A DNA stretch of 64,000 bases from Steromphala cineraria (lineage: Eukaryota; Mollusca; Gastropoda; Trochida; Trochidae): contig OU744735.1 in assembly GCA_916613615.1 (NCBI GenBank), forward strand, positions 39,071,468 to 39,135,467. The letters run 5' to 3'. Numbering within the stretch: position 1 is the first letter of the stretch; every line of letters begins with the position of its first letter. The notes below the pieces were generated by a model. It worked only from the letters and a program-made list of their open reading frames with translations. It had not been told where the DNA came from and did no database searches. The translations under genes were made by a program, and so were the position numbers. Below, in pieces: positions 1,860 to 57,762 of the stretch.

Positions 1860-2150
1860 GCTTACAGGATTCGGCGATTGATAAAAAGGCCGATGAACAA
1901 ACATCAGCAAATTAATTAAAATAGGTTTAATAATACATTCATTCAGCATCTTAACAAACAATTAACAAACATTTCATTAGCTATGATATCATTATGCTTA
2001 CAGGATTCGGCGATTTATAAAAAGGCCGATGAACAAACATCAGCAAATTGATTACAATAGGTTAATGCTACATTCATTCAGCATCTTAACAAACATTTCC
2101 TTAGCTAGGATATCATAATGCTTACAGGATTCGTCGATTAATAAAAAGGC
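1860..2150. repeat. Tandem repeat, ~110-120 bp unit, three degenerate copies
   Basis: Three successive copies of a unit carry 'GCTTACAGGATTCGGCGATT', a 'AAAAAGGC' stretch, 'CATTCATTCAGCATCTTAAC' and 'CAATTAACAAACATTT'. The unit recurs in copy B (56,440-56,690) with fewer copies, so unit number differs between the duplicated segments. Confidence 0.75.
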
Positions 2151-3423
2151 ATGGCATCATTTATCTAAGAGACCAATATATAGTCCCATTATCACAATAG
2201 AGAAAAATGACTTATCATGTTTCAAAGAAAGACAGTGAATATAAATAAGAATGCGTGTACATACATGTATGTACAATGTACATCAGTATATTGCAATACA
2301 GGAACATCGTAGATATCGTTACGCACCTCTGAGACTTGGGCAAACAATAGGATATGATTTTAAAGAAAGTGTTAACTCGGGTGGAGAAGTTTATAACAAT
2401 CTATTGTAAATCTCCCCTTTCCTAAACAGAAGACAGCTGAGCAATTACTGCTGTTCTCGTTTCTGTTATTGGTCTGGAGAGCATGCACAATGTTAAATTT
2501 GAAAAGTACCAATATATTGAAATTTGTGTCGCAATACGCTTTTCTATGTTGAATTATTTTACAATGCAAGAATACTAAACGATTTCCATCTTTAGAAATG
2601 GAAATGGTCTAAATATATCTTTACTACCAAGACAATAAAACACTTTGAAATATTTCCCCAAAGTGTTGTTAGGTTGCAAAGGGAAGCATTCTTAATACCT
2701 CAGACAATTAAATAGTGCGAGTTGAACAAATTAGATTTGAAATGCGCCACGAAAGAATCGATACCATGTCTAAGTCAAACCAACAACCACTCATGGTGCT
2801 TGTGTCGAAAGAAAGCTGGTCCGGTAAACGTTTTAGTGTTTATTTCCAAGATGAAACCATGCACTGAAATTTTGTCCTTGGTAAGTTGAATGCCATTGGG
2901 CCAATAATTGTGTTAAGAATTTTGTCCCAACTACATCTATGACCTTTGGATAAGGTGGATATTGAAACATGCCCAATGGGAAAATCACCAGGACAATACA
3001 AGTATTTTTCAGAGCGTTCTGGTACTTTAAACATTAACTAACCTCGACCTTACCACTTCTCGATTTTCGTTCAAAGATTTTTCCAAAAAATTAAAGCTGG
3101 ACTTAATTTTTGTTAATTTGTCCAATAAACACCTTTATTAGCCTTTCATTTAGACAGCGCAATTATCGGCTGTGAAAAACCCACCTGGGTTAGGGGCCAT
3201 AAAACTCGCGCAGGTGTAACGTAATAAGCAGACTATACAGAGTAACGCTTCATTATTTCAACTGAAATACCGCCTTAATGATTGTTTAATTACCATGGAT
3301 GTGGATATCTTTTTTACACCAAATGCTTAGTAGTGTTACGTCGTCAAATGATTTATCTAACTGAGTGGAAAACATTTTCTGAAAATCGTTAATTATTAGC
3401 TTTTCCCCCCTGTGTTATTGTTA

Positions 3424-3460
3424 CGATAGATAGATAGATAACAAAAGATAGATAGATACC
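3424..3460. repeat. (GATA)n microsatellite
   Basis: GATAGATAGATAGATAAC followed by a second short GATA run. It lies in the part of copy A that is missing from copy B. Confidence 0.9.
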
Positions 3461-3610
3461 GAGACTGATTCTGTTTATGACGTCACCAAATGGGGGCGTG
3501 ACCAGTCATGCATTCACTTGTTTGTTGTCAGATAGGTCTAAGCGGCCCATCACAAGTGGCTTTCAAAAACGGCTTTCATTACCAAACTAAACATATTTAA
3601 GTAGCGACCT

Positions 3611-3974
3611 TTAAAGGGGCAGTAGCACGTTTTTTGATAATTTTACATTTTAAATAGTTCACTTATAATTGTAAGTAAATGCTAAATGCATCATATTGAC
3701 AGTGTCAACAATCTCATTACACAAGCCAATCACCCATAGTCAGAGGACAAAGTATGAGGCTTAACATAAAATCCATTGGCGGCCAGTTTTGTGTGAACAC
3801 CTTTAATTCATTTTTGTAAGAAAAATTAATCTCATGGCTGAACTTTACGTTATATATTTGAATTATTACTGCTTCATTTAGTTTGTATACATTGTCTTTC
3901 AATTGGAACTATTTATTTTCATTTTCCTGACATCACCTTAATTTCCCCCTAAAAACGTGCTACTGCCCCTTTAA
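3611..3974 (+). mobile_element. T2/Kolobok-like MITE, copy 1
   Basis: A 364-bp element bounded by TTAA with inverted ends TTAAAGGGGCAGTAGCACG...CGTGCTACTGCCCCTTTAA. The TTAAAGG start with a TTAA target duplication is the hallmark of T2-type MITEs, assigned to the Kolobok superfamily in Xenopus; the assignment here is by end sequence only. It has no transposase and is non-autonomous. Four other copies lie in the window. It sits in the copy A segment missing from copy B. Confidence 0.85.
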
Positions 3975-4050
3975 CGCACTATACAATATTGTAATCAGAT
4001 TTTCTATATTTCAAAGATAATAGTGAAATATGTTTGTGGTTATGTGAACT

Positions 4051-4796
4051 TTAAAGGGGCAGTAGCATGTTTTTTTCTTATTATTCTATATCTTTAATTT
4101 GTCACTGATAATTGTACGTTGAAAGCTGGATGTCTTATGTTTTAAGTGTCATAAATCTCATTACACAAACCAATCATCCATAGTCAGAGAACAAGTTATG
4201 AGGTTTCACTCAAAGTCTATTGGCTGCCATTTTTTGGGTACACCTTTAATTCATTTTATTATATGATGGACGAGTGATCTGTTTTCTGATTGGCCGAGAC
4301 AGCTGGTCATCGACAGTGATCAAACCTTATGTTGACCGCGGGAAACGTCACGCGAGGTTAACATATATAACAATCCGATGACCTGGAGCTAAAAATAGAT
4401 CGCCACTACGAGGAGCGCCGTAAAGAAATGCTTAAAAAAAAACCTTAAAATAATTGAATAGTTTTCAAAATAATTGAAATTTCATGAATCATATAATAAA
4501 ACAGTTGTTGACTTCAGTTATCGGTGAATCCAATGGTTTATTGACCTCGGAAACTTATGTTCCGAGGTCAATAAACCATTGTATTCACCTCAACTGAAGT
4601 CAATAATTGTATATTGTGTATTAAAAAGGAATCGCATGGCTCAACTTTACATTATAGATTTAATTTATTACTGCTTCATTTAGTATTGATACAGTGTCTT
4701 TCAATTGGAACCATTAATCTTCCTTTTTCTGACATCACCTTATACTACCTCTAAAACGTGCAATATTGCACCTAAAAACGTTCTACTGAGCCTTAA
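4051..4796 (+). mobile_element. T2/Kolobok-like MITE, copy 2, interrupted
   Basis: Same family as 3,611-3,974. The 5' end is clear (TTAAAGGGGCAGTAGCATG); the 3' end is degraded and partly duplicated (two CTAAAAACGT-type blocks before CCTTAA). It is split by a further insertion at about 4,258-4,615. Its counterpart in the duplicated segment is the uninterrupted copy at 57,763-58,126, so the nested insertion came after, or segregates between, the copies. Confidence 0.8.
4258..4615. mobile_element. Insertion within MITE copy 2, ending in a long hairpin
   Basis: This segment interrupts MITE copy 2 and is absent from the equivalent site in copy B and from the other family members. Its right part (4,505-4,607) is a near-perfect inverted repeat with ~47-bp arms and an 8-nt loop; each arm contains 'CAATGGTTTATTGACCTCGG' in opposing orientation. 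I cannot define a target-site duplication with confidence. It is probably a small non-autonomous DNA element of unknown family. Confidence 0.6.
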
Positions 4797-5959
4797 AGCT
4801 CACTTTTTTGTTAAATGGATAAATATTGAATATATATATGTAAGGCATGATATCTGAAACATTAAGCGCCAGGCGAAAATGTTTGAGTATGATGAATTAC
4901 GAATCTTGAAACAGTCAACACATTATTATGGAAAATGTAATTACTGAGGAATTCATTTCGAATTAACAAGAGGATATAGAAATTAAGATACTCTGTTCTA
5001 AAACTTCCTAAATGGCAGACACACTTACCTTCTTCTTGTAACTGGAAATAAGATCAGCTGTGTAGTTGAGAATTAATTGTTGCAGAAAAGAAGAATATTT
5101 TATCAAGGTTTTGTCCTTCAGTCTAGATAAGTGACTTTTTGAAAAACAAAACAAAAAACGATTAAGTTCAAACATTGCATTAAGATTGAATGTTGTGATG
5201 AGGTCTAAGTCGTATCTCAATGTACCCTTACATAAAAATCATTGAGAAGGACTTTCCACCCCCCTTTCCATCTTTGGAAGATTTTGATATCTATTTTGGA
5301 CCAAGTTGAAACTGTAAGATTTTTTTTACAGAGGGAATATACCATTATGTACTTACATAGAGTAATCCATTCCTTTGCAGTTATTATTTTCTGAGGTTAC
5401 ACTATTGTTATTATTGTACTGTAAATATGATATTCCACCATTTGTTGTAGATTTTATTCCAAGAGTCAATAATGCTAATCTGATCAAAGGCTTTTCTTAT
5501 TATTTTCTTTTTCTTTGTTTAAAACCCAAAGATCCTGTGTCCAGTCCTTCAGTTTTGTCTAAGGGATCTCCTTCATTTTGGGTATCTTCATTTAGAAAAT
5601 ATATTTGATTGCCCATCTGTACCTTATCTTAAAAAAATCATTTTATCCACATTGATTATTTATCAAAACCTAGTGTTTTAGATATGAATTCACTTACTAG
5701 GTTCAATGATGGCTTCTGTTACAACTGACCTATGCACACATCATAATCAGATAATTGCCTTTGTAAAACTAATTCTTTATTTTTATTTAGTTGAAACAAA
5801 TTGAAACTTTATTAAGAATGAACTACTAATGATTTGAAAATATTTTCCATATGTGCCAAGTAGTTAAAGATTTTCATACAATAGAGGTTAAATCAATTGT
5901 GATAAACAAACAATACATGTACCTCTGACATAAATCTGTATCATCAATATAAGTAAAAA

Positions 5960-6830
5960 ACACATCTCCAAAAATACATATATTTTAAGTATCGTAATTG
6001 CAAACATGCTGAGTTTGAATTGTGATTATGACTCCACTAGAGATAACAATTGTTAAACTTACCAAATTTGAATTGTATGTTTGAGGCCACTATGGTATCA
6101 CAATTGTAAACTTTCTGAAGTTTAATTTTATGGATGAGGCAACACCTACTTTCATACTGCTTCCGTCTATGCATGTATAACACCTAGTAATTTAGTTCTC
6201 ATTATGCTCAGCCGTTACAACTTAAAACGTTCAAAGTTAAATGTTTGGCAGACAAATAGTTTTCGTAGTGAGTGGGCGACTGTGAAATGATCATTTAGTT
6301 TCCAGAAGTCTTTATGTATGAGGCCACTTTAGTATGACAATTGTAAACATGCTGAATTTGAATTAAATGTATGATGCCACTTTCGTATGACAATTGTAAA
6401 CTTTCTGAATTTGAATTGTATGTATGATGCCACTATAGTATCACAATTAGTCTGATTAAAATCGACCGTGTTTCGAGGAGGAAGCAGGACAAATATGTAT
6501 TAAGGCTTCCCTCTCCACAACGAGAATGAGAGGAAAGCCGGGCTGATGAGGTTCGAACCCCACTAGAGATAATATTTTTACAAGTTTTTCCTCGTAGCAC
6601 AGTCGATTTTAATCCGACTTGTATCACAAATGTAGACTTACTGCATTTAAATTCTATGTATGAGACATCACCAAATTCCAAACTCCTTCCATCTATGCAC
6701 GTATAACACCTAGTTATTTATTTCTCATTATGCTCAACCGTTACAACTTAAAACACGTTCAAAGTTAAATGTTTGGCAGACAAATAGCTTTCGTAATGAG
6801 TGGGCGACTGTGAAATGACATTATTATATT
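5960..6830. repeat. Tandemly repeated region (~56-bp units inside a ~545-bp duplication)
   Basis: The phrase 'ACAATTGTAAAC' followed by 'TTCTGAATTTGAATT' and 'TATGAGGCCACT' or 'TATGATGCCACT' recurs near 6,050, 6,110, 6,320, 6,370 and 6,420. A larger block (6,110-6,300) is repeated at 6,645-6,830, sharing 'AAATGTTTGGCAGACAAATA' and 'GAGTGGGCGACTGTGAAATG'. Copy B keeps only one unit near 58,680-58,860, so the array expanded in A or contracted in B. Confidence 0.7.
6460..6620. repeat. Inverted-repeat insertion in the tandem region
   Basis: The segment begins 'GTCTGATTAAAATCGAC' near 6,449 and ends 'GTCGATTTTAATCCGAC' near 6,602-6,618. These are imperfect inverted repeats of about 17 bp bounding roughly 170 bp. 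Inside are 'GGTTCGAACCCC', which resembles a tRNA B box, and the pair 'GAGGAAGC' and 'TTCCTC'. It is likely a short MITE or SINE-like insertion. The evidence is the inverted ends only. Confidence 0.45.
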
Positions 6831-8583
6831 GCATTTGAGTATTGTGCAAGCATAAACCAGTTTTCTGAATTCATATTCTGACATAGTTTTAACCTTATCT
6901 AAAATTGTTGGCCAGAATTGATGAATTAAAAAAACTTTAATGGCACGACCAACTATTTTTGAATCATTTAGAATTTATTGTTAACTGTATTTTTTAAATG
7001 TCGTTCTTGAATCTGCCTCTTGCAACATTTACCAATTAGATTAAGTTATTTCTCATTTTGGGTGGAAACTCTTTGTATGATTAGATTAAGCACTAAACGT
7101 GTGCACAAAGCAGTGTTTAAAAAACCTGATGATGTTAAAGAGAACAGACAATCTACATGGTGAAACGATTATAGGAGCTGTAAACGTTGTAAAGCTAATA
7201 TTTCAAAATTTCTGAGAACCTTGTTGAAATTAGAAATGACAGAACTCATTAAATATAAGCTTGAAGTTTCAAATATAGCCTTAAATCAAAATCGAATATG
7301 GCAGTACACTTCAAAGTCTTAATGTCATATTTTATTCTGCCAGCGTGATTAGAATGAAAGTGAAAATCGATTACAAAAACAGAACACATATTAAGTAACA
7401 TAAGCCGTTGAATAAATTGATGCAAAATTGATATTTTGGGATAAAAGTATAAACACAGGCTGAAGATATACTATCAAGCGATATTGATCAGCCGACAGGT
7501 TAAAGGTTAGACTGAAGTAATACTGTCAATGAATATTATACAGATGAGTACAGAGAACAGACATTTTTTTTTTAGAAAATCATTTGAGGCGTAGAGGAGC
7601 TTAGTCACTGATCGAATTTTAGAAAACTCAAATAATGTTATAAATAATGCGGAGGTTTAAATCAAGACCAGGATGATTCACAATCAGATAACATTACACA
7701 CCGCAGCAAAAATGTTCAAAAGATCAAAAAAGGTCGTCCTTATACATTGTAAACACTCTCATATCATGGCATTAGGTTCATAATGCAAGTCGATGTATGT
7801 TTTCTCCACATGGATCTATCGAATCAACTAGTTCTTTGCAGGTATTGACGGCTCAAGAGATTGTTTGTTTGTTTTTCTGGAGATCTAGACATAACCTTAA
7901 AATGTATTTGGAATAAAGGTCTTTCGGTTTTGCTTTCTTTCCATGCAAACAGATTCCGTTTTATTGAAAGAGATATAGCGTTTGAATGGTTATGTTGGCA
8001 AGATAAGGCCTCTGTCCTTGCCTTAATGTCAGTTAATTTAGAAAAGATTATATAAATGAAATACAATGTTTTATAATGAGAAAATAATATAGAAAACGTA
8101 AAATATACCTTAAAAATATGTTCTTTTGATATTGATGGTATTGGTAGCTCAAGTATATCTCATAAAAGAAATACAAAAGTTGAAGAAAAAATTGGGATTT
8201 AAATAGTTTCTTATCTTCAAAAAAAGTGAAAATGAATAGAATGGTTTTAGCAGGTGGGATGAAAATGGTAAAAAGAGTATTTAGGAACCGGAAATTGTGA
8301 GATGGCCACAATTGATTCGCTTTCATGTCAACATGCCGGGTCCTACGTTTTGGTCATTTAAAAATTTCTCCTTATTAAAGAAGGGCTGCATAACCTTTTT
8401 TAAATATATTTTTGAAAAGATATTGGTCAAATAACTATATAACAGAAATATTAGGCTAAAACAGCAACGATACACAGTTTCTCAATGAAGCTACAGCTAA
8501 GTAAACATTGCATAACAAGGCGTCTGCTTGTCGTCGTCCAGCGACAAACCAAAACAAGGCTGAGAGGCCACGGGCAGGGGATA

Positions 8584-8596
8584 CCGGAAGTGACGT
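8584..8596 (+). promoter_or_regulatory. Composite ETS/CRE-like promoter motif
   Basis: CCGGAAGTGACGT joins an ETS core (CCGGAAGT) to a CRE half (TGACGT), a combination typical of housekeeping promoters in animals. It lies in a locally GC- and CpG-richer patch (about 8,520-8,630), about 85 bp before the start of the THAP-like frame at 8,680. That position suits a promoter for that gene, but no transcript evidence is available here. Confidence 0.4.
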
Positions 8597-8679
8597 GGCA
8601 GTAGGCGAAGCGTTCGTCTGCTTATGTGGAAAATGATAGGCAGAATCCGAAGTTCTGCCTTTTCAAAGCGATTAACAGT

Positions 8680-8885
8680 ATGCTATTTCATTGTATTGCT
8701 GTCAACTGTCCTAGAATATCTCCTGATGAAGTCTCCGTAGACAAATTCCCATCATATTGATGGTTTCACGCCAAATTGACCCGCTGTGTTAGGTCAAACA
8801 GAGCAAAGTGACAATCTACATCGAACTCACGTGTTCCCATCACTACACCGGTATTCTGCTTCGAGTTCGCATTTTCACTGAATGA
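8680..8885 (+). pseudogene. THAP-like zinc-finger domain remnant
   Basis: From the ATG at 8,680 the frame reads M-L-F-H-C-I-A-V-N-C, then S-V-D-K-F-P-S-Y, then a TGA, then W-F-H-A-K-L-T-R-C, a second TGA and S-T-S-N-S-R-V. This follows the THAP plan: an early C-x4-C, a (H/K)-(R/K)-F-P motif ~20 residues later, and an S-R-V-C-S-x-H-F segment near residue 60. After S-R-V the frame shifts by one and continues as F-P-S-L-H, as if the second Cys of the C-x2-H pair were lost. THAP domains bind DNA in cellular regulators and in P-element and related transposases. Two nonsense codons and a frameshift make this copy non-functional. It lies in the part of copy A that has no match in copy B. It could instead be a chance resemblance over a short span. 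Confidence 0.45.
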
Positions 8886-8889
8886 ACAG

Positions 8890-10299
8890 TTTGGCATGCA
8901 GAGAAAAGGGAGATTAGTAAAATATAAAACATAGAACAAAGTATTGGGCTGATTTATGGTAATAATCCGAATATACAATGCTCACATTTAGATTTGAACG
9001 TTGTGTAAAAAGGTTGAATAACCACTGACATTGGTCTGCAGGTGTTACTTACTTTCTTTAGATCAGATACTCACTTATTACACAATTACTTTACTGTCTA
9101 TCGTATTTCCTGTCTGTTTCCTAATTAGATGATATCAAATGATGACTATAGCAGGTAGGTTATATAATGCACAATCATCAACACCTGGCTATTTTATGAC
9201 ATCAGCTAATTAGGTAACATCAAATAGCAATTGTATTCCTTAACATCCCTTTTTTCTCCGATTGGTAAATTATAACCTATTAACCTGAAATTAGGAATAC
9301 CGTTTTTGCTCTATCTGATAATTATTTTGGATAAGGTTCATTTAATAAATCTTCATTCTGTTTGGCCATGTATCGGCTATTGTTGTGGAAAATATCACCT
9401 CTATGTACAAGAGTGAAAACATTAAGATTTTCAGTGAAATGCCCTATTAAAATGATGTTTTAACAAGACATCAGTGATCATCCAATACATGTCTTTCATT
9501 GAGAATTGTAACTTGTCCATCACTAATTGAAATAACTAAGAAAAACGTATATATTTTTTATCCTTTTACAAAATGAAGTCAAAGGCAATTCTAAAAAAAT
9601 GGTTTAAATGTAAAAATAAAATAGTATTGTATAATTACATCCTTTCTGCTGTGCTACTAAAGTAATATTCAATAACAACCAACAACTGTGCACGAAGATA
9701 AAACAGTTCACACGGGAGCAATTGTTTAAATATACATCCGGGTTCTCAGCGCAGTCTTATGACAACATTGCGCAAAGCGAGACCATCTAGGCCTACATGC
9801 TGTAGCATTATGCGCACAACTTCGTTTTTAATCAGGGTCTTACGTTTTCATCAATACAAATTGCCAGTTGAATAAATAAACAACCGATTTATTGAAGGTT
9901 TGAGATGTTTGGATGTTGTTTAGGGTGTTTAGTCAACGGTTAAACATCGAGCTGTACTGTTAACTTGTGTTGTTTTACATAACGAGGGCACACAAGGGGG
10001 TATCACATCACCTACTAAAACGTCACGAGGCAGTCACGCTTCAGTGCGTTTTATTCTGTTCGCCGGCCTAATTAGGCGGTGTTCTTTATACAGTCGTAAT
10101 TAAGCCGTTTCTAGGTCGATTTCAGAAATTTAAAGTTGAGTCCATGTGAAAGTGTTATCACTATTTCATGAATCCCGAAAGTTGCCATATAGCATTTCAG
10201 TCCCTCTTTAAGAAATGTTTGTCCGATCTTCTTATGGTTGGTCACAAATATTGCTACAAACAACATTAACATTTTTAAATATTGCAGTGTGAATATGGG
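8890..10299. other. No recognised feature
   Basis: This is the interval between the duplication blocks. It is AT-rich with only short random ORFs. A somewhat CpG-richer stretch occurs near 10,010-10,090. I see no gene, RNA or repeat boundary I can support. Confidence 0.5.
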
Positions 10300-10830
10300 T
10301 CTTTAAGGTACGCAGCTGTATCTATGAAACCGTATCTACACTCCACGCCTGTCATCGTTATTGTCTGTAATAAATTTCACTTATTTTTTAATAATTTTAC
10401 TGGTAAAATACGTATGTGTTTTCTCTTGAGTATCAAAGTTCTTTGTGACATTATCAAATAATTATGTGTTGCACTTAATTTCAGTTATACTTGAAGTAAT
10501 TTGCAAATAAGAGATGCAGTTATGGATTCAAATTGCTGACAAATAAGAAGTATATTGCCTTTTTAATTAAAAAGGTGTCATTGCATTTCGACACTCAATC
10601 TCTTTGTACAGTCGAAACGACAAGAACAGCAACATTACACGCCCAGGAGACCTGAAACCAAGGTATAACAATGCTGTTAGGGACAATCAAATTTAACACA
10701 CGTTCCTTGTATGTAGTCAATGCTCGTTTTACTTTATTTGATCTCACTTAAGCGCTGCGTTTCTTATGCATTCATATAAAAATAAAAGTCCCAGATATAT
10801 ACATACAGATTTTTTTAGACACCAATATTA
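10300..10830. repeat. Segmental duplication, copy A (second block)
   Basis: This stretch matches 61,262-61,781 in the same orientation. It starts at the shared 'TTTAAGGTACGCAGCTG' and ends around 'GACACCAATAT'. The DNA between the two blocks (8.3-10.3 kb here, 60.5-61.26 kb in copy B) shows no evident match, so one or both intervals were replaced or inserted. Confidence 0.85.
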
Positions 10831-11303: not shown

Positions 11304-11312
11304 CAATTTCTC
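11304..11312. repeat. Target-site duplication, left (CAATTTCTC)
   Basis: Nine bases CAATTTCTC abut the left end of the foldback element and are repeated directly at 19,072-19,080 beyond its right end. A 9-bp duplication is typical of Mutator-type elements, including Drosophila FB foldback elements. Confidence 0.85.
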
Positions 11313-11396
11313 GGCAGTGTGAAGTTGGTTACTTATTCCTTATTCCTTATTCGATATTCAGTTTTTCCAGTTACTTATTCAGAAAAGTCGACCTAG

Positions 11397-12406
11397 GGTA
11401 CCAAGGAATACGTGCACCACCTTCTAAGTATACTCAAATTAAAGGTAATTCAATTGTCCATCCAATGAGGTATCATACGTTATATTACATAGAGGCGGTC
11501 ATACCGTAATGTCCCAAAAACCAACACTAAGTAACCCTTTTATTCAAACAAAAAATTCTGAAGGTACCAAGGAATACGTGCACCACCTTCTAAGTATACT
11601 CAAATTAAAGGTAATTCAATTGCCCATCCAATGAGGTATCATACGTTATATTACATAGAGGCAGTCATGCCGTAATGTCCCAAAAACCAACACTATGTAA
11701 CCCTTTTATTCAAACAAAAAATTCTGAAGGTACCAAGGAATACGTGCACCACCTTCTAAGTATACTCAAATTAAAGGTAATTCAATTGCCCATCCAATGA
11801 GTATCGTACGTTATATTACATAGAGGCGGTCATACCGTAATGTCCCAAAAACCAACACTATGTAACCCTATATTGTAGTTCTTTCAAACAACAAATTCTG
11901 AAGGTACCAAGGAACACGTGCACCACCTTCTAAGTATACTCAAATTAAAGGTAATTCAATTGCCCATCCAATGAGGTATCATACGTTATACTACATAGAG
12001 GCGGTCATACCGTAATCTCCCAAAAACAAACACTAAGTAACCCTTTTATTCAAACAAAAAATTCTGAAGGTACCAAGGAATACGTGCACCACCTTCTAAG
12101 TATACTCAAATTAAAGGTAATTCAATTGCCCATCCAATGAGGTATCATACGTTATATTACATAGAGGCGGTCATACCGTAATCTCCCAAAAACAAACACT
12201 AAGTAACCCTTTTATTCAAACAAAAAATTCTGAAGGTACCAAGGAATACGTGCTCCACCTTCAAAATATACTCAAATTAAAGGTAATTCAATTGCCCATC
12301 CAATGAGGTATCATACGTTATATTACATAGAGGCGGTCATACCGTAATCTCCCAAAAACCAACACTAAGTAACCCTTTTATTCAAACAAAAAATTCTGAA
12401 GGTACC
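11397..12406 (+). repeat. 166-bp satellite-like tandem array, left arm
   Basis: Six units are counted from one GGTACC to the next (11,397; 11,563; 11,729; 11,903; 12,069; 12,235; 12,401). The period is 166 bp except for one 174-bp unit, in which TTTTATTCAAACAAAA is replaced by a TATATTGTAGTTCTTTC variant. Neighbouring units are ~95% identical or better. Unit landmarks are 'GTGCACCACCTTCTAAG', 'GGTAATTCAATTGCCCATCC' and 'GAGGCGGTCATACCGTAAT'. Confidence 0.95.
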
Positions 12407-12414
12407 AAGTCATT

Positions 12415-12910
12415 CATTTTCCTTGAAAAATCTGTACTTTTGGGATTCTCAATATACCATGCAGCATAACCATCAGTGAACTTATCTTGAAATCATATTA
12501 ATGATTCACTACAAAACAAATGTAAGTGGCCACCATCCTGTAAGTAATGAATGACAATTAAATGGATACACCTAAACCAATCAAGATATCATAATGAAAT
12601 TAATACGGATGCCCACATAAAAGTAGCATTTTGAAGATTAAAAAGTACAAGATGGTCACCAATTCAGCCATAGATATACAAAAAAGTTATACAAAAACCT
12701 ACTGCTTGTTAACTTAACATGATTATATCATTCGTGTATTAATGTTTGTTCAAGCTCTAGTCGTTTCCAAAAGAAGACTAGTATTTTAAAAGATAAAAAA
12801 AACCATGATGGCAGCCATAATCAATTATATAAAAGATGGTTAAATGTATAATTAAACCATTTTACCACATCATTCATTTTAAGGTGAGCTTCTGTACCCT
12901 CGGTACTTTT
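12415..12910. other. Left-arm segment without a partner in the right arm
   Basis: About 500 bp between the array and the tRNA-like block. The corresponding place in the right arm holds a different ~135 bp (16,815-16,948). It has no ORF of note and no repeat I recognise. It could be an insertion into the left arm or a loss from the right. Confidence 0.6.
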
Positions 12911-12919
12911 ATTTTTATC

Positions 12920-13075
12920 TGCTTTGGTCAGTTTGTAGATGGTATACCAACTCAAAACAAAGGGCTTTGTGAAACTTTAATTGTATCATGTATGAACATG
13001 AGTTGGATTCGAACCCGGGACCTCTACATTGTATATATTCAAAGTGATTCGGTTATGCCATGCCAGTATTGCGTG
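12920..13075 (-). repeat. tRNA-like segment (SINE head?), left arm
   Basis: Read on the minus strand there is a B-box-like 'GGGTTCGAATCC' preceded ~45 nt upstream by 'TGGCATGGCATAACCGAATC', which could be a decayed A box. No complete cloverleaf can be drawn. The inverse copy is at 16,650-16,805 in the right arm. It is probably a tRNA-derived remnant captured by the foldback element. Confidence 0.35.
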
Positions 13076-13559
13076 TTTATTTGTATATAATTATATATCT
13101 ACAGCAAAATTAAATACTCTATGACTATTTAAGGAATCAAGTTAATACTTTTGAAAGCTAACTCAGATTTGTAATATAAATAAATATGTTGTCCTTCAGT
13201 CAAGACATATTAGACCCGCAAAGAATGTCAGAGCAATGAGTATGCATAGGAAATAATGTTTATATGTAACTTAGTTAGAAAACAGGATTATCGGTGGGAG
13301 TGTAAACCAAATAAATACCCAGATCGCCTAGAAAAATATGGATACGAACTCTATTCGGGCTACGCCTTTGTGTATATTTGCCATAGCCTCTCGTCATCGG
13401 CCTGTTTTGTACTAAATAACCTCCTGTGTGCCATAAACTCTACTCTTTTCTCGTTTCAATACCGTACTTTTAATTTTAATTTCCAACTTAACCCTCTAAG
13501 TAACCCTTGTTTCTCTTACCTCACCTAATGCTATACCGAGTAAATGATAACACGCTACA

Positions 13560-14443
13560 GAGAGGTAATAGAAAATAGACTCGTATAGGCCCTCTTGGTA
13601 TTATTTGATTTGATAACCCTAATTTTACCGTATACCTTACTCTGACCCTCTTGTTGTCCTATCCCTCTACGTTACCGTCGTTTCCATAATTCTCACATTA
13701 CTGTCTACCTAACTGTAACTCGTGTTGTAACCTATTTCCGTGCATTACCCTTTTTTGTGGCCCACACTTGACTGTTGATATAAATCCCTCTCTAATCTTC
13801 TACGTTACCCTCGTTATTGTAACCCTCGTTTAACCATCAACTTTACTGTGATCCTCACTCTTCCCTATCGTTTTACGCTTTACTTTTTTTCATAACCTTG
13901 CTTTGCAATAACACCTACGTAACCGTTTCCATAACTCTCACTCAGAGTATTTATTTCAGTAACCATCGCTCTTACCCTCTACGTAAGCCTTGCTTCACAA
14001 TTTACCTTACTGTAACCCTCATTCTGCCTTATCTGTCTATGTTTTACTCATTTTCGTAGCCCTAACACTACCGTTTACTTAACTGTTACCCTCCGATTGA
14101 CCTTACCCTATATAACCCTCTTGTCCATATCCCTGGCTTTACAGTATATCTCACTAATCCTACTGTTACCCTCGCTTTGCCCTTACTCCCACGTAACCCT
14201 CCTTTTTATAACCATTGTTATTCTGTTAACATAACTGTAACCCTTGCTTTTCCCAATCCTCCTACGTAACCCTCGTTTCTATAAACCTTTCATTGCGAAT
14301 ACATAACTGCGAGTATTTATTTCTGTAACCATCGCTCTTACCCTCTACGTTAGCCTCGCTGCACCATTTACCTTACTGTAACATTCATTCTGCCTTATCT
14401 GTCTATGTTTGACTCATTTTCGTAGCCCTATTACTACCGTTAC
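13560..14443 (+). repeat. Degenerate AACCCTCGTT-rich block, left arm
   Basis: Almost 900 bp made of irregular phrases such as 'TAACCCTCGTT', 'TTACCCTCTACGTTA', 'ACTGTTACCCTCGCTTT' and 'TACGTAACC'. They recur every 20-40 bp with strong strand asymmetry (C- and T-rich on this strand). TAACCCT is the complement of the animal telomere motif, but spacing and flanks are too irregular for a telomeric array. The reverse complement forms 15,145-16,170. Confidence 0.75.
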
Positions 14444-15144
14444 AAAATTATTGTTGATGTAGTTATAAACTTGTAATGCGAGGGTTATGGACACGATGGT
14501 TACGTAAAGGGTTAGGGCAAAGTGACGGATTCAGCTAGGTATATGGTAAAGCAAGGGAAATGGAACCAGGTTTACGTAGAGGATAAGGGCAAAGCGATGT
14601 TTACCCAGAAGATAATAACCAGGTACCGAGAGATTAAGCACAACAACTGCGATCTAAGTGTATTGTAATAACCCGAGGCAATTTGTTGTTTTTCATTTGG
14701 CTTAAAAACTAGAGGATCACTCTTGACTACACAGAGATGCCCGGTTCGAATCCCACTTTCAATGTTGAAAAATCTTAACTTCCCTGTTTGATAAAAAATA
14801 AAATTCTTAGTCAAATTGTTTGGTTGTTTTAATCATTTCAAAACCAACCTACGCGGATGCTCCTTTGAATAAACCAAAGGCAATAAATTCATGAGGGTTT
14901 GACAAGTGAACACCTGAGGATGGTAGTTAGGAGTTAAAACATATTGAAAATAGATATATCCACCCAAGGGGTGTATAAACTCTCTCAAAAAAGAAACGCA
15001 ACCCCTCTCTCATTTTCTGACAACCTCTGAACAAAAATGGTGAATGTGAATTGGATTTTTTTGTCATGTGTCACGTGAACCAATCAGAGATCGAGATTCT
15101 TACATGAGGTAGGATAAATGGTTAGGTCAAAGTGAGGGTAACAG
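14444..15144. other. Central spacer of the foldback element
   Basis: About 700 bp with no inverted partner. It contains a B-box-like 'CCGGTTCGAATCCC' at ~14,740, and a promoter-like A-box candidate 'TGGCTTAAAAACTAG' at ~14,697, so another tRNA-derived remnant is possible. No ORF resembling a transposase is present. Confidence 0.6.
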
Positions 15145-16170
15145 TTAAGTATACGGTAGTATTAGGGCTACGAAAATGAGTAAAACATAGACAGATAAGG
15201 CAGAATGAATGTTACAGTAAGGTAAATGGTGAAGCGAGGCTAACGTAGAGGGTTAGAGCGATGGTTACAGAAATAAATACTCGCAGTTATGTATTCGCAA
15301 TGAAAGGGTTATAGAAACAAGGGTTACGTAGGAGGATTGGGAAAAGCAAGGGTTACAGTAAGGTTAACAGAATAACAATGGTTATAAAAAGGAGGGTTAC
15401 GTGGGAGTAAGGGCAAAGCGAGGGTAACAGTAGGATTAGTGAGATATACTGTAAAGCCAGGGATATGGACAAGAGGGTTATATAGGGTAAGGTCAATGTG
15501 AGGGTAACAGTTAAGTAAACGGTAGTGTTAGGGCTACGAAAATGAGTAAAACATAGACAGATAAGGCAGAATGAGGGTTACAGTAAGGTAAATTGTGAAG
15601 CAAGGCTTACGTAGAGGGTAAGAGCGATGGTTACTGAAATAAATACTCTGAGTGAGAGTTATGGAAATGGTTACGTAGGTGTTATTGCAAAGCAAGGTTA
15701 TGAAAAACAGTAAAGCGTAAAACGATAGGGAAGAGTGAGGATCACAGTAAAGTTGATGGTTAAACGAGGGTTACAATAACGAGGGTAACGTAGAAGATTA
15801 GAGAGGGATTTATATCAACAGTCAAGTGTGAGTCACAAAAAAGGGTTATGCACGGAAATAGGTTACAACACGAATTACAGTTAGGTAGACAGTAATGTGA
15901 GAATTATGGAAACGACGGTAACGTAGAGGGATAGGACAACAAGAGGGTCAGAGTAAGGTATACGGTAAAATGAGGGTTATCAATCAAATAATACCAAGAG
16001 GGGTATGGCAAGGCAAGGGTTAAAGTTTGCATCGTTATCTCATGTCCACCTTTGCCGGAGTGTTCCTCGTGAGTGTAGGCCAACACATAACCTGATTGTC
16101 TCGGGTTATGGCAATAACTAAGCTCGGGTGACGCCTATACGAGTCTATTTTCTATTACCTCTCTGTAGCG
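15145..16170 (-). repeat. Degenerate AACCCTCGTT-rich block, right arm
   Basis: Reverse-complement partner of 13,560-14,443, read here as 'GAGGGTTACGTAGG'-type phrases. Long stretches match base for base, for example 'GTAAAACATAGACAGATAAG', which occurs twice within this arm (~15,180 and ~15,545). That shows an internal duplication of roughly 365 bp. Confidence 0.75.
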
Positions 16171-16948
16171 TGTTATCATTTACTCGGTATAGCATATGGT
16201 GAGGTAAGAGAAACAAGGGTTACTTAGAGGGTTAAGTTGGGAATTAAAATTAAAAGTACGGTATTGAAACGAGAAAAGAGTAGAGTTTATGGCACACAGG
16301 AGGTTATTTAATACAAAACAGGCCGATGACGAGAGGCTATGGCAAATATACACAAAGGCGTAGCCCGAATAGAGTTCGTATCCATATTTTTCTGGGCGAT
16401 CTGGGTATTTATTTGGTTTACACTCCCACCGATAATCCTGTTTTCTAACTAAGTTACATATAAACATTATTTCCTATGCATACTCATTGCTCTGACATTC
16501 TTTGCGGGTCTAATATGTCTTGACTGAAGGACAACATATTTATTTATATTACAAATCTGAGTTAGCTTTCAAAAGCATTAACTTGATTTCTTAAATAGTC
16601 ATAGAGTATTTAATTTTGCTGTAGATATATAGTTATATACAAATAAACACGCAATACTGGCATGGCATAACCGAATCACTTTGAATATATACAATGTAGA
16701 GGTCCCGGGTTCGAATCCAACTCATGGTCATACATGATGCAATTAAAGTTTCACAAAGCCCTTTGTTTTGAGTTGGTATACCATCTACAAACTGACCAAA
16801 GCAGATAAAAAAACCCACCAAGAATGACGTCGGTTAAAGCATACATTGTATATCTTTAAATTTCACTAAACAAGCTCTACAAATGTTCCTTAATAACTAA
16901 ACATGAATCTGAAATGTGGTGTGCATACTGAATGTTATATGATATTTA

Positions 16949-18989
16949 CCTTTAATTTAAATATACTTAGAAAAGGTGAGCATATTCCTTATTGGGTTAA
17001 TTAGTGTTGGTTTTTGGGACATTACGGTATGACCGCCTCTATGTAATATAACGTATGATACCTCATTGGATGGGCAATTGAATTACCTTTAATTTGAGTA
17101 TACTTAGAAGGTGGTGCACGTATTCCTTGGTACCTTCAGAATTTTTTGTTTGAAAGAACTACAATATAGGGTTACATAGTGTTGATTTCTGGGACATTAC
17201 GGTATGACCGCCTCTATGTAATATAACGTATGATACCTCATTGGATGGGCAATTGAATTACCTTTAATTTGAGTATACTTAGAAGGTGGTGCACGTATTC
17301 CTTGGTACCTTCAGAATTTTTTGTTTGAATAAAAGGGTTACTTAGTGTTGGTTTTTGGGAGATTACGGTATGACCGCCTCTATGTAATATAACGTACGAT
17401 ACCTCATTGGATGGGCAATTGAATTACCTTTAATTTGAGTATACTTAGAAGGTGGTGCACGTATTCCTTGGTACCTTCAGAATTTTTTGTTTGAATAAAA
17501 GGGTTACTTAGTGTTGTTTTTTGGGAGATTACGGTATGACCGCCTCTATGTAATATAACGTATGATACCTCATTGGATGGACAATTGAATTACCTTTAAT
17601 TTGAGTATACTTAGAAGGTGGTGCACGTATTCCTTGGTACCTTCAGAATTTTTTGTTTGAATAAAAGGGTTACTTAGTGTTGGTTTTTGGGAGATTACGG
17701 TATGACCGCCTCTATGTAATATAACGTACGATACCTCATTGGATGGGCAATTGAATTACCTTTAATTTGAGTATACTTAGAAGGTGGTGCACGTATTCCT
17801 TGGTACCTTCAGAATTTTTTGTTTGAATAAAAGGGTTACTTAGTGTTGTTTTTTGGGAGATTACGGTATGACCGCCTCTATGTAATATAACGTATGATAC
17901 CTCATTGGATGGACAATTGAATTACCTTTAATTTGAGTATACTTAGAAGGTGGTGCACGTATTCCTTGGTACCTTCAGAATTTTTTGTTTGAAAGAACTA
18001 CAATATAGGGTTACATAGTGTTGGTTTTTGGGAGATTACGGTATGACCGCCTCTATGTAATATAACGTACGATACCTCATTGGATGGGCAATTGAATTAC
18101 CTCTAATTTGAGTATACTTAGAAGGTGGTGCACGTATTCCTTAATACCTTCAGAAATTTTTGTTTGAATAAAAGGGTTACTTAGTGTTGGTTTTTGGGAG
18201 ATTACGGTATGACCGCCTCTATGTAATATAACGTACGATACCTCATTGGATGGGCAATTGAATTACCTTTAATTTGAGTATACTTAGAAGGTGGTGCACG
18301 TATTCCTTGGTACCTTCAGAATTTTTTGTTTGAATAAAAGGGTTACTTAGTGTTGTTTTTTGGGAGATTACGGTATGACCGCCTCTATGTAATATAACGT
18401 ATGATACCTCATTGGATGGGCAATTGAATTACCTTTAATTTGAGTATACTTAGAAGGTGGTGCACGTATTCCTTGGTACCTTCAGAATTTTTTGTTTGAA
18501 AGAACTACAATATAGGGTTACATAGTGTTGGTTTTTGGGAGATTACGGTATGACCGCCTCTATGTAATATAACGTACGATACCTCATTGGATGGGCAATT
18601 GAATTACCTTTAATTTGAGTATACTTAGAAGGTGGTGCACGTATTCCTTAATACCTTCAGAAATTTTTGTTTGAATAAAAGGGTTACTTAGTGTTGGTTT
18701 TTGGGAGATTACGGTATGACCGCCTCTATGTAATATAACGTACGATACCTCATTGGATGGGCAATTGAATTACCTTTAATTTGAGTATACTTAGAAGGTG
18801 GTGCACGTATTCCTTGGTACCTTCAGAATTTTTTGTTTGAATAAAAGGGTTACTTAGTGTTGTTTTTTGGGAGATTACGGTATGACCGCCTCTATGTAAT
18901 ATAACGTATGATACCTCATTGGATGGGCAATTGAATTACCTTTAATTTGAGTATACTTAGAAGGTGGTGCACGTATTCCTTGGTACCCT
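16949..18989 (-). repeat. 166-bp tandem array with higher-order structure, right arm
   Basis: About 12 units on the minus strand. Unit marks fall at 17,129; 17,304; 17,470; 17,636; 17,802; 17,968; 18,143; 18,309; 18,475; 18,650; 18,816; 18,982. Periods are 166 bp with a 175-bp unit every third unit on the right. Variants alternate regularly (CGTACGAT or CGTATGAT; GTTGGTTTTTGG or GTTGTTTTTTGG; TTGGTACC or TTAATACC). They give a 332-bp dimer repeated twice (~17,345-18,008) and a 507-bp trimer repeated twice (~17,991-18,985). This is satellite-style higher-order organisation inside a transposon arm. Confidence 0.93.
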
Positions 18990-19071
18990 AGGTCGAATTT
19001 TCTGAATAAGTAACTGGAAAAACTGAATATAGAATAAGGAATAAGGAATAAGTAACCAACTTCACACTGCC

Positions 19072-19080
19072 CAATTTCTC
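19072..19080. repeat. Target-site duplication, right (CAATTTCTC)
   Basis: Direct copy of 11,304-11,312, immediately outside the right end of the foldback element. Confidence 0.85.
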
Positions 19081-20595: not shown

Positions 20596-20848
20596 TGTAA
20601 GATGTAATAAACGCGGTAAGATGTAATAACTGCGGTAAATTGTAATAAACGCGGTAAGATGTAATAACCGCGGTAAATTGTAATAAAAACGCGGTAAAAT
20701 GTAATACTGCGGTAAATTGTAACAAAATTGCGGTAAAATGTAATAAAAATAGGTGCGGTAAAATGTAATAAGGGGGTGCGGTAAGATGTTACTAAAAGGT
20801 GCGGTAAATTGTAATACAATATGCGGTAAAATGTAATAACCTTTCCAC
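20577..20848 (+). repeat. Array of GCGGTAAAWTGTAAT motifs, plus orientation
   Basis: Eleven copies of a ~15-bp core (GCGGTAA, then AAT, GAT or AAA, then TGTAATA) are separated by variable 2-10 bp spacers. Core bases are far better conserved than spacers. The same motif occurs in the opposite orientation at 27,514-27,683. A run of in-frame 'FYR' and 'TIYR' residues on the minus strand is a by-product of the repeat, not a protein. Confidence 0.85.
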
Positions 20849-21699
20849 AGTCTTTGATAACTTTTTTCAACAATATTTGTTCATTTTTGGTCTATGCTGG
20901 TACATGTGATGATATGTTTAATTGTTTTTTGATTGAGGATGACACAACGAAATATGTTTAGATTTGAATTACGTACACTTGAATGTTATTTCACTTTCAT
21001 GAATGATTGTATTTTATTATCAGTAATGTTATTAAGATATATCACATCTCTGATTGGTCCACGTGACCCTGGTTAAATACTGATATCACCCTGTTGAGCG
21101 GGAAGGTAAATTATTTATACCCCGGCACAAACAAATTTACAATGTATGTTACCTCGAACACATGGTTAAGCTAGTTTCTTTTGATCAACCGATATGTAAC
21201 TTTGAGCAAACTATAGTCAAAGTGTTGACGCAGTTAACGTTTTCCTTTATCTTCATATTAAATGCGTTATGTTTAAACATTCGGTAAGATAAATTCCTTA
21301 TACCATTCAAAGGCGGGGTATATGGGCTCGTCGCATAACACAAAGTGAGAGGTTGATATCTCCCTAAAAACCACGCCTCTGAAAGGCATAACTTATAATT
21401 GATTTGGACGACTCATATTTCATGGTTTATATCTATGAATGTTAGATTGGATGGCTTTTAGTTTTATTTAGTTTGCTTAAGAATGGTGTTCTAGTTTCAT
21501 AAATGTTTTTTTTATATTTTGGAAAATCAATATTTGTTTTTTGTTTTTAATTATAAGGGGTAATCATTCATTTTTGAGAAAACAATTGAGCAATCTTTAA
21601 TTTTCAAGAATGGTTATATCTATTATGATTACCAAGAGGGTTTGTGATACATTTCAAAATGCACACTTATATATATATATATATATATTATATAATTGT

Positions 21700-21760
21700 T
21701 AAAACTCCACACTGTTGAAAAGACTTGTTAACAAGTCGAAATGCGACGCATCCAGTCATC
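21700..21760 (+). ncRNA. Decayed hammerhead-like hairpin
   Basis: CTGTTGA (one change from CTGATGA) is followed by a palindromic stem (GACTTGTTAACAAGTC), then GAAA, then a short hairpin ATGC-GAC-GCAT. That is the hammerhead order of elements, but one invariant base is altered and no stem I can be formed, so it is probably inactive. It lies in the extra segment of repeat unit 1. Confidence 0.4.
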
Positions 21761-21848
21761 ATTAAAATGATATCTACAGCAAGTGTCGTCTGAAGTATTT
21801 TATTTTCAAATCTACATTTACTTCACGTGAGACCCCTTAATCTTTATA

Positions 21849-21850
<2 letters not shown>
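21757..21850 (+). repeat. Inverted repeat partner of 23,355-23,445
   Basis: From 'ATCATTAAAATGATATCTAC' through 'TTCACGTGAGACCCCTT' this is the reverse complement of 23,355-23,445 with only a few mismatches. Together the two bracket the rest of the duplicated region, suggesting an inversion or a pair of opposed element ends. Confidence 0.8.
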
Positions 21851-21889
<39 letters not shown>

Positions 21890-22171
21890 CTCACATAAAC
21901 CAGCCCCGAAATCGAACTATTCCTCTTAGTGAGCATTTAGATAAATGTGGAAATGGCAAGTTCAAAGTTTTCCCGATATATAAACTCAATTATCATAATG
22001 ACAATGATTTACTTTTGAAGGAATCATATTTTATTCATAAATATGCGCCAAAATTGAATGGCAAAACATGATATTGTTTACATTATGATCAATTGTTGTC
22101 AAGTTTATTGTGACGTCATAGGTTCCTGTGTGACGTCATAATACTATGTACTGTGTGTCAGTTACTGCATT

Positions 22172-22227
22172 AAACGGCCTGATGAAGCAGGTACAGGATG
22201 TACCTGCTGAAAACGTTTGCCAAACTT
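22172..22227 (+). ncRNA. Hammerhead-core-like hairpin, copy 1
   Basis: CTGATGA (22,179-22,185) is followed by a perfect 9-bp stem (AGCAGGTAC / GTACCTGCT) with loop AGGAT, then GAAA (22,209-22,212). A stem III can be drawn with one bulge (GTTT-GCC-AAAC). No complementary stem I is found: the flanking AAACG pairs instead with CGTTT after GAAA. The catalytic segments are those of a hammerhead ribozyme, but the overall fold is incomplete. Confidence 0.5.
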
Positions 22228-22276
22228 AATTCAACTTCATCTTCTTCTTTTTAATATGTACTACCATAGAGTTTGA

Positions 22277-23190
22277 TTAAGCTAGTTTCTTTTGATCAAC
22301 CGATATGTAACTTTGAGCAAACTATAGTCAAAGTGTTGACGCAGTTAACGTTTTCCTTTATCTTCATATTAAATGCGTTATGTTTAAACATTCGGTAAGA
22401 TAAATTCCTTATACCATTCAAAGGCGGGGTATATGGGCTCGTCGCATAACACAAAGTGAGAGGTTGATATCTCCCTAAAAACCACGCCTCTGAAAGGCAT
22501 AACTTATAATTGATTTGGACGACTCATATTTCATGGTTTATATCTATGAATGTTAGATTTGATGGCTTTTAGTTTTATTTAGTTTGCTTAAGAATGGTGT
22601 TCTAGTTTCATAAATGTTTTTTTTATATTTTGGAAAATCAATATTTGTTTTTTGTTTTTAATTATAAGGGGTAATCATTCATTTTTGAGAAAACAATTGA
22701 GCAATCTTTAATTTTCAAGAATGGTTATATCTATTATGATTACCAAGAGGGTTTATGATACATTTCAAAATGCACACTTATATATATATATATATATATA
22801 TATTTATCTCACATAAACCAGCTCCGAAATCGAACTATTCCTCTTAGTGAGCATTTAGATAAATGTGGAAATGGCAAGTTCAAAGTTTTCCCGATATATA
22901 AACTCAATTATCATAATGACAATGATTTACTTTTGAAGGAATCATATTTTATTCATAAATATGCGCCAAAATTGAATGGCAAAACATGATATTGTTTACA
23001 TTATGATCAATTGTTGTCAAGTTTATTGTGACGTCATAGGTTCCTGTGTGACGTCATAATACTATGTACTGTGTGTCAGTTACTGCATTAAACGGCCTGA
23101 TGAAGCAGGTACAGGATGTACCTGCTGAAAACGTTTGCCAAACTTAATTCAACTTCATCTTCTTCTTTTTAATATGTACTACCATAGAGT
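22277..23190 (+). repeat. ~1 kb direct repeat, unit 2 (Penelope-like?)
   Basis: Second copy of 21,166-22,276, lacking the ~190-bp segment between the (TA)n runs. Near-identity across ~910 bp indicates a recent duplication or an LTR-type arrangement. Confidence 0.85.
23089..23144 (+). ncRNA. Hammerhead-core-like hairpin, copy 2
   Basis: Identical in core, stem II and loop to 22,172-22,227, carried by the second direct-repeat unit. The same limitation applies: no clear stem I. Confidence 0.5.
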
Positions 23191-23294
23191 TTGAACATTA
23201 TTTGTGATATTTCTATATATATATATATATATATAAACTGCTTTGCTTCGTTGATAACGTTGCATTGCTGAAAGTTCAACCATGTTCCACACAC

Positions 23295-23342
23295 ACCATG
23301 CTGATGAGGTCCGAAAGACCGAAACAGCTGGCTGTTCATGGT
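23295..23342 (+). ncRNA. Complete type I hammerhead ribozyme
   Basis: All elements are present in order. Stem I 5' strand is ACCATG (23,295-23,300) and the core is CTGATGA (23,301-23,307). Stem II is GGTC/GACC closing the loop CGAAA (23,308-23,320), followed by GAAA (23,321-23,324). Stem III is ACAGC/GCTGT with a 2-nt loop (23,324-23,335). The cleavage-site residue is T at 23,336, and stem I 3' strand is CATGGT (23,337-23,342), fully complementary to the 5' strand. The invariant bases CUGANGA and GAA and the A-U pair next to the cleavage site are all intact. The short stem III and open stem I match the minimal type I hammerheads known from Penelope-like retroelements and retrozymes. Cleavage would follow a GUU triplet, which is allowed (NUH) though usually slower than GUC. 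Confidence 0.85.
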
Positions 23343-23354
23343 TATATATATAGG

Positions 23355-23445
23355 TATAAAGATGAAGGGGTCTCACGTGAAGTAAATGTAGATATGAAAA
23401 TAAAATACTTCAGACGACACTTGCTGTAGATATCATTTTAATGAT
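23355..23445 (-). repeat. Inverted repeat partner of 21,757-21,850
   Basis: Lies directly downstream of the hammerhead. It is the reverse complement of 21,757-21,850, including the 'AAGGGGTCTCACGTGAAG' landmark. Confidence 0.8.
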
Positions 23446-27442: not shown

Positions 27443-27513
27443 CTTAGCATAATGATTCTAACTTGTTTGGCGAATCATACTCATAATCATTTTCTATGGT
27501 TTATATGAACCAA

Positions 27514-27683
27514 TGTTATTACAATTTACCGCGCATCGCATTACAATTTACCGCACACTGAGTGCTAACATTTTACCGCACCCCCTATTACAATTTACCG
27601 CACCTGTGTTTACATTTTACCGCATTTTTATTACAATTTACCGCAGTATTACATCTTACCGCGTTTTGATTACATCTTACCAT
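27514..27683 (-). repeat. Array of GCGGTAAAWTGTAAT motifs, minus orientation
   Basis: Eight copies of the same core as at 20,577-20,848, read here as ATTACAATTTACCGC or TTACATTTTACCGC, with variable spacers of 2-15 bp. Orientation is opposite to the first array, ~6.7 kb away. Confidence 0.85.
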
Positions 27684-43647: not shown

Positions 43648-43653
43648 GAATAC
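43648..43653. repeat. Target-site duplication, left (GAATAC)
   Basis: Six bases GAATAC immediately precede the left end of the 5.7 kb inverted-repeat element and recur at 49,374-49,379. Confidence 0.75.
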
Positions 43654-44211
43654 TATGGAAGGGGATGTGTGCCAAAAATGAATTCATGTGCACTCGTAAC
43701 TCGCAAGATGTAACATGTCGTTCTCAACCATGCAATTCTCGAAAAGACAAGTCCAAGCGTGCAAAACTAACATTTCAATCCTGTAAAACTCAACTTGCTG
43801 TTCTCAACTTTACAAAGTTGAAATGTAATTCAAGAAATGTGTAAAGACAAAACCGGATTTTCTATTTTGAATAAGAGTAATATTCACAATAAGCAATGCT
43901 GTAAGTTACGTTTCACATATGGAAAATGGACAATGGAAAATAAAGAGTTGTAAAATCAGCTTTTTCAAACAGACTTTTGCATTTCGAGTTTTACACGATT
44001 GCAATGTACATGATCTCGCATTGACGGGGGATGTGTGCCAAAAATGATATGCTATGCTTGATTCGTTAAAGCAAACATTAGACCGGCGCGCTGATTCTGC
44101 AACAGGCACGAGAAAGGAACAAATTTACTTTATGTAAGCGGCTGACCTGCCTAACCGAAACAAATACCCAAATGACAGAATAACTGACCAATGTACGTTT
44201 TAAGCATAAGC

Positions 44212-46572: not shown

Positions 46573-46575
46573 TAA

Positions 46576-49373: not shown

Positions 49374-49379
49374 GAATAC
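49374..49379. repeat. Target-site duplication, right (GAATAC)
   Basis: Direct copy of 43,648-43,653, immediately outside the right end of the 5.7 kb element. Confidence 0.75.
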
Positions 49380-57300: not shown

Positions 57301-57399
57301 ATACCATGTCTAAGTCATATCAACAACCACTCATAGTGCTTGGTGTCGAAAGAAAGCTGGTCCGGTAAAACGTTTTATTGTTTATTTTCAAGATGAAAC

Positions 57400-57584: not shown

Positions 57585-57762
57585 AACCATAAAACATGCA
57601 CTGACATTTTGTCCTTGGTAAGTTGAATGCCATTGGGCCAATAACTGATTTAATAATTTTATCTCAACTATATGTATGACCTTTGGATAAGATGGATATT
57701 GAAACATGCCCAATGGGAAAATCACCAGGACAATACAAGTATTTTCAGAGCGTTCCGGTTCT

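Follow-up and report, generated by a model that had tools for sequence, protein, structure and literature searches.

A family of large foldback elements with satellite-bearing arms in the genome of Steromphala cineraria

FB elements of Drosophila melanogaster carry long inverted arms of tandem repeats and are flanked by 9-bp duplications. This study characterizes an element of comparable shape from the gastropod Steromphala cineraria, located in a 64,000-nucleotide stretch of contig OU744735.1 (assembly GCA_916613615.1, positions 39,071,468 to 39,135,467 of the forward strand; C42:39071468-39135467 in the source genome of 1.27 Gb), referred to here as the window. The element, 7,759 bp long (window positions 11313-19071), is quite probably a non-autonomous foldback DNA transposon, a shortened member of a family of large foldbacks whose satellite arrays re-amplify in each copy. 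Compared with this family, FB elements have much shorter repeat units and are smaller.

Judged by description, the closest known kind of element is Tetris of Drosophila virilis, of which the window family is a much larger variant. The consulted part of the source on Tetris (PMC4079207) describes long inverted ends composed of an outer domain, ~220-bp tandem repeats and an inner domain, no coding capacity, and 8-10-bp duplications; Tetris was proposed as a Mutator member, and its repeats as a seed of satellite arrays. Its inverted ends reach 1,735 bp, three structurally complete copies are reported, and its longest arrays, of up to 66 copies, are described as satellite-like (PMC4079207). The window family resembles Tetris in its long inverted ends, its succession of outer domain, tandem repeats and inner domain, its lack of coding capacity and its comparable duplications. 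It differs in having arms of up to ~11 kb, approximately six times longer, 61 and 62 units within one copy that has a perfect duplication, 17 such perfect-duplication pairs of ends, two arm lineages kept together, and arrays private to each copy.

Other described systems share fewer of these features. Tm1 of root-knot nematodes is a Mutator/foldback family with 9-bp duplications; it differs in its repeat unit of 13-15 bp, its element size of ~1 kb and its known Phantom-type transposase, as far as the consulted part of the source describes it (PMC3169594). Galileo, a member of the P superfamily in Drosophila, also has long inverted ends, and one subfamily is described with a ~210-bp tandem repeat whose number changes independently at each end; its ends, however, extend to ~1.26 kb with at most three repeats, its duplications are 7 bp, and its transposase is known (PMC3573991). 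In oysters, the 160-170-bp satellites Cg170 and BIV160 are described in arrays on mobile elements, a likeness drawn by description, but their carriers are Helentrons, an element class different from that of the window family (PMC8268682, PMC5139131).

Structure of the element and its family

The ends of the window element are exact inverted repeats: the 16-bp sequence GGCAGTGTGAAGTTGG occurs once per strand in the window, at 11313 (+) and 19056-19071 (-). Immediately outside them lies a perfect 9-bp direct duplication, CAATTTCTC, found exactly twice in the window (11304-11312 and 19072-19080, both + and matched exactly); given the local base composition, the chance of a 9/9 match at a fixed place is ~1e-5. 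The left arm (11313-14440, 3,128 bp) and the right arm (15153-19071, 3,919 bp) are colinear, inverted, and 97-99% complementary in their longest matched blocks. The ends, the duplication and the arms, together with a satellite of 166-bp period in both arms, had been proposed in the initial annotation and were recovered here. Long inverted arms containing tandem repeats, the hallmark of FB-like foldbacks, are present in the window copy and in other copies, and the duplication that shows movement of the inverted unit is perfect in the window copy.

A search of the source genome for the 16-bp end returned 137 exact copies (67 forward and 70 reverse), while the reversed-pattern control returned 0. 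Places were listed for 100 of the 137 copies, and neighbouring inverted ends were paired by eye, yielding 31 pairs (62 of the 100 listed places) and, with the window copy, 32. A perfect 9-bp duplication flanks 17 of the 32 pairs, two have a duplication with one mismatch, and 13 have none; among 992 swapped pairings used as a control, no 9-bp duplication was observed. These results uphold the earlier proposal of a foldback transposon. The 17 perfect-duplication pairs span 5,002 to 29,201 bp, with a median of 17,423.

Four large copies were read whole, namely C1a (C1:16571293), C1b (C1:16606619), C1c (C1:81373533) and C3 (C3:23626415), along with two smaller ones, L023 (C35, 5.0 kb) and L027 (C4:21500436, 9.4 kb, without duplication). 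Together with the window copy, these seven copies, none of B-type (see below) and located on several chromosomes, share one arm plan, which runs from outside to inside as 84-bp end, satellite, 124-bp segment, inner arm, 130-bp segment, TAACCC-rich block and loop. The plan shows losses and expansions among copies: the left arm of C3 is missing the 124-bp segment, its right arm the match to the 130-bp segment, and L023 several parts. The numbers of satellite units per arm, as counted by BLAST, are 6/12 in the window copy, 34/47 in C1a, 27/18 in C1b, 21/25 in C1c and ~61/62 in C3, the 29.2-kb copy, which has a perfect duplication and arms of up to ~11 kb.

In the window copy, the left arm (+) begins with the 84-bp outer end, TIR84 (11313-11396, starting with GGCAGTGTGAAGTTGG), followed by 6.1 satellite units of 166 bp, one of them of 174 (11397-12409), a 502-bp segment (12410-12911) carried by the left arm alone and not seen in the other copies examined, a 569-bp inner arm (12912-13480), and a degenerate TAACCC-rich block (13481-14440). 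The central loop (14441-15152, +) measures 712 bp and is ~2.3 kb shorter than that of C1b, the missing sequence falling at one junction, and the window copy has the appearance of a reduced relative of C1b. The right arm (-) comprises a TAACCC-rich block (15153-16002), the 130-bp segment (16003-16132), a 679-bp matched block of inner arm (16133-16811) whose outer 569 bp (16243-16811) match 12912-13480, the 124-bp segment (16812-16935), an array of 11.8 units in which blocks of three units and blocks of two are repeated (16994-18987), and the right TIR84 (18988-19071). The 130-bp and 124-bp segments are missing from the left arm but found in other copies. The two TIR84 sequences differ at 2/84 sites; in the other copies read, TIR84 is represented over 84-100% of its length at 88-100% identity. 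Between the arms, the 679-bp block has 10 substitutions, and the inner block next to it has 17 substitutions and two one-base gaps within the arm (the alignment shows 26 substitutions, nine of which lie beyond the arm end at 14440).

Two further features had been read into the arms. A tRNA-like remnant was not recovered: the left inner arm holds only a B-box-like motif, GGTTCGANNCC, and neither ARAGORN (bacterial code) nor Rfam gives a tRNA; Rfam returned no match at gathering thresholds and, at E<=1 on the element, one unrelated sub-threshold match. The telomere-like block does consist of degenerate TAACCC-rich repeats, but a minisatellite-like block, itself degenerate, describes it better than a telomere array does, because TTAGGGTTAGGG is absent from the window. 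The heptamer TAACCCT occurs, on either strand, 41 times in the element, 17 of these being one per satellite unit, and five times in the rest of the window.

A satellite 21-mer had no match in genome contig and viral contig collections, nor did a 26-bp end pattern in the viral contig collection. At least one of three short end strings occurs in 40 published papers, and the 15 that were listed looked unrelated by title; among the listed papers on foldbacks with molluscs, bivalves or satellites, none was recognised as describing the window family. Two structural variants were also observed among family loci. At C32:17104500-17128650 (L051, L021, L052, L022 and L053), two B-type copies lie within a palindrome of >23 kb, whose ends are beyond the stretch read, with an additional ~71-bp array outside the 84-bp ends; at L089 (C39:48764539), one end of the copy has its first 27 bp doubled in tandem.

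Candidate enzymes for mobilization

In the proposed mechanism, the family depends on a transposase supplied from another source, most likely of Mutator-like type. This enzyme would act by recognising the 84-bp ends and would integrate the complete inverted unit through a staggered cut of 9 bp; the duplication is observed, the enzyme inferred. With moderate confidence, our best guess for this enzyme is a MULE. MULE target duplications are 8-11 bp, usually 9, and the 9-bp duplications of 17 of the 32 pairs fall in this range. The Mutator-like class named in the initial annotation is accordingly matched by the duplications, but no MULE transposase was found between family ends in the copies examined, and the element was not filed as a MULE member.

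A six-frame Pfam scan of the element (stops as X) gave no transposase or MULE match, and few long open frames are present in the window; a match to the Leader_Erm leader peptide, covering 11 residues, was taken as spurious. Scans of loop regions in C1b (six frames) and in C1a (six frames for part, three forward frames for the rest) revealed no MULE, only a Tc1-like remnant, and no family transposase was found in C1c, C3, L023 and L027, which were checked for long open frames only. The remnant in the loop of the large copies is broken: DDE_3 passes its cut-off in C1b but falls short of it in C1a. C1a, C1b and C3 also have similar 126-aa open frames. Tc1 enzymes generate TA duplications. Since those of the family are 9 bp, the remnant was taken as a passenger and not as the mover.

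Genome-wide, 144 MULE matches were obtained with 150 of 276 candidates scored, and 24 MULE loci were inspected, most with ~1.5 kb per side. Four of them (L046, L047, L097 and L098) have GG-starting inverted ends and 8-bp duplications. L040 has GGGCAGT/GGCAGT ends, a sequence that recurs within the locus, and a palindromic duplication that can be read as 8 or 10 bp. The MULE-domain locus L039 contains two nested candidates, each with 9-bp duplications: an outer one (1131-2596) with ends CAATCTAG matching at 20/20 positions, and an inner one (1211-2272) with GG ends of ~17-bp tandem repeats matching at 17/20. A second candidate at L097 and that at L099 are weak; L099 bears the end-like sequence GGCAGAGTGAAG, yet neither a second end to pair with it nor a duplication could be identified there, and the locus was dropped as a partner. 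No end candidate was found at the other 17 MULE loci in the stretch inspected. L098 and L099 encode FLYWCH plus MULE, which is the Phantom arrangement described for Tm1 (PMC3169594). The 8-bp duplications of the best-delimited loci argue against a close match between the family and local MULEs. We infer the Mutator class instead of assigning it, because no family transposase was found and these best-delimited MULEs show 8-bp duplications.

The same two observations leave room for a foldback of another superfamily (P/Galileo-like, Merlin, hAT or undescribed) that makes 9-bp duplications, an alternative we regard as unlikely, though tangible. P and hAT elements produce 8-bp duplications, and all 17 perfect duplications of the family are 9 bp, outside the 7- to 8-bp range of the P superfamily. 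The foldback shape itself arises in different superfamilies, as illustrated by Galileo in P, but the duplications of Galileo are described as 7 bp (PMC3573991); furthermore, Tm1, a MULE foldback, makes 9-bp duplications (PMC3169594), as do the candidate ends at L039.

Arm lineages and turnover of the satellite arrays

To follow arms across copies, they were named P and D by loop orientation. In C1a, C1c and C3, each arm belongs to an older lineage of its own, and the two were passed on as a pair instead of one being regenerated from the other at each move. The D arms of these copies group in the arm tree (supports 0.984 and 0.983); therefore, the inverted pair moved as a unit in these copies. 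In the 569-bp block, C1a_D and C1c_D differ at 4 sites and C3_D at 12 from each; the two arms of the same copy differ at 24 (C1a), 19 (C1c) and 17 (C3). A 400-bp piece of the next block gives 6 differences between C1a_D and C1c_D, with 34 and 15 within the copies; for the window copy and C1b, the corresponding values are 3 (D-D) and 2 (P-P), with 7 and 6 within copies.

Among 204 complete satellite units from six copies, the mean distance is 2.65% between units of the same array, 2.95% between units of opposite arms and 3.63% between units of different elements. The nearest neighbour of a unit belongs to the same array in 135.9 cases, to the opposite arm in 30.4 and to a different element in 37.7. 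When C3 is added, 319 units comprise 142 distinct sequences, of which 10 are shared between arrays and five between elements. Stretches of as many as 10 consecutive units recur exactly, always within a single array. The left inner arms of the window copy and C1b differ at only 1/569 sites, yet their left arrays have no identical unit in common; aligned in register, these arrays show 23 mismatches plus 37 gap columns over 1,125, little improvement on out-of-register alignments (24-28 mismatches in 1,041), and the right arrays have one unit type in common. Because near-identical inner arms carry left arrays without common units, the arrays appear, from these unit comparisons, to have grown and turned over once the copies had separated, with re-amplification in each copy.

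According to the explanation favoured here, both arms would be copied together as older lineages without rebuilding from each other, as in C1a, C1c and C3, and after separation the 166-bp array of each arm would grow and turn over alone by local block duplication, for instance through unequal exchange or replication slippage. Private units and blocks are observed; the mechanism and timing are deduced from them.

Several observations weigh against this explanation. The 13 of 32 pairs without duplication comprise seven B-type pairs (3.4-5.4 kb), which have inverted flanks instead and contain the same modules at lower identity, and six others, one of which is 261 bp long and has a 10-bp direct repeat offset by 2 bp, and others of which may be mispaired; copies lacking a target duplication had been named in the initial annotation as evidence against its reading. 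With 150 of 276 candidates scored, no listed MULE match falls within any of the 32 pairs (assessed by eye), the copies examined yielded no autonomous partner (100 of 137 ends listed), and the best-delimited MULEs have duplications of 8 and not 9 bp. The two-lineage pattern is less clear in the window copy, where WIN_D differs in the 569-bp block at 7 sites from WIN_P and at 9 from C1b_D. The inner arms of L027 differ at just 2/564 sites, which suggests arm-to-arm correction in that copy. Finally, requiring units to be identical is a stringent criterion, and an appearance of private arrays could also result from misassembly of the arrays or from exchange among copies.

This last point underlies the possibility that the arrays moved at their present size without growth in each copy, their private units arising from inter-copy exchange or assembly error. 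Long inverted repeats and satellite arrays are hard to assemble, and the nearest-neighbour counts show that the units are not fully private; nevertheless, block repeats of up to 10 units restricted to single arrays and the contrast between inner arms and left arrays in the window copy and C1b make this rather improbable. An ordinary palindromic rearrangement or assembly artefact, a concern raised initially, finds some encouragement in these assembly difficulties and in the >23-kb palindrome at one B-type locus, but it is very improbable in view of the 17 independent perfect duplications (swapped pairings, 0/992), the 10 substitutions in 679 bp and the indels elsewhere between the arms, and an arm plan common to several chromosomes. 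Helitrons have neither long terminal inverted arms nor a target duplication of such kind. A satellite-carrying Helitron or Helentron, recalling the short arrays of 160-170-bp satellites described on oyster Helentrons (PMC8268682, PMC5139131), is contradicted by inverted ends that match exactly, by inverted arms of kilobase length and by the 9-bp duplications, and is extremely improbable.

Neighbouring repeats and significance of the family

With its scarcity of long open frames and its LINE-type reverse transcriptases, the window has a eukaryotic appearance. Several other repeats accompany the element in it. A colinear direct duplication relates 2-10828 to 54307-61781, in pieces of 70-92% identity, and the foldback element lies just past its left copy. 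A minisatellite (GCGGTAAAATGTAATAA and variants) at 20597-20843 has an inverted form 6.7 kb away at 27512-27681, ~85% alike; the pair is possibly a second foldback-like element beside the first, although inverted ends accompanied by a matching duplication were looked for and not found. The interval 21163-23445 contains nested direct repeats, 531 and 416 bp long and 99% alike, as well as an inverted repeat of 103 bp (98%). Inverted repeats of 560 bp, 94% alike (43650-44208 and 48815-49377), flank ~5 kb that contains a LINE-type reverse transcriptase (46568-47629, -). A ~365-bp interspersed repeat is present in at least four copies, 81-89% alike, at 3606, 25138, 34864 and 57761.

The origin and rapid turnover of satellite DNA is an old open question. 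Satellite DNA makes up the bulk of the arms in this family of unusually large animal elements, each copy of which seems to grow private arrays of its own. Foldbacks of almost 30 kb exist with intact ends and duplication, although their size when they moved may have differed. A speculative extension, which we consider doubtful, is that array growth is coupled to transposition, with fold-back pairing at excision, repair or insertion forcing the re-amplification of blocks. If so, each insertion would be born with new private arrays in both arms, and the family would act as a factory able to release free satellites.

Seventeen perfect-duplication insertions share their ends, and the seven copies read whole carry arrays ranging from a few to ~62 units per arm. 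Copies can be dated by their unique inner arms, and private array units record later growth, so that array birth, expansion and loss become countable per insertion. The family could therefore offer a natural place for watching satellite DNA arise.

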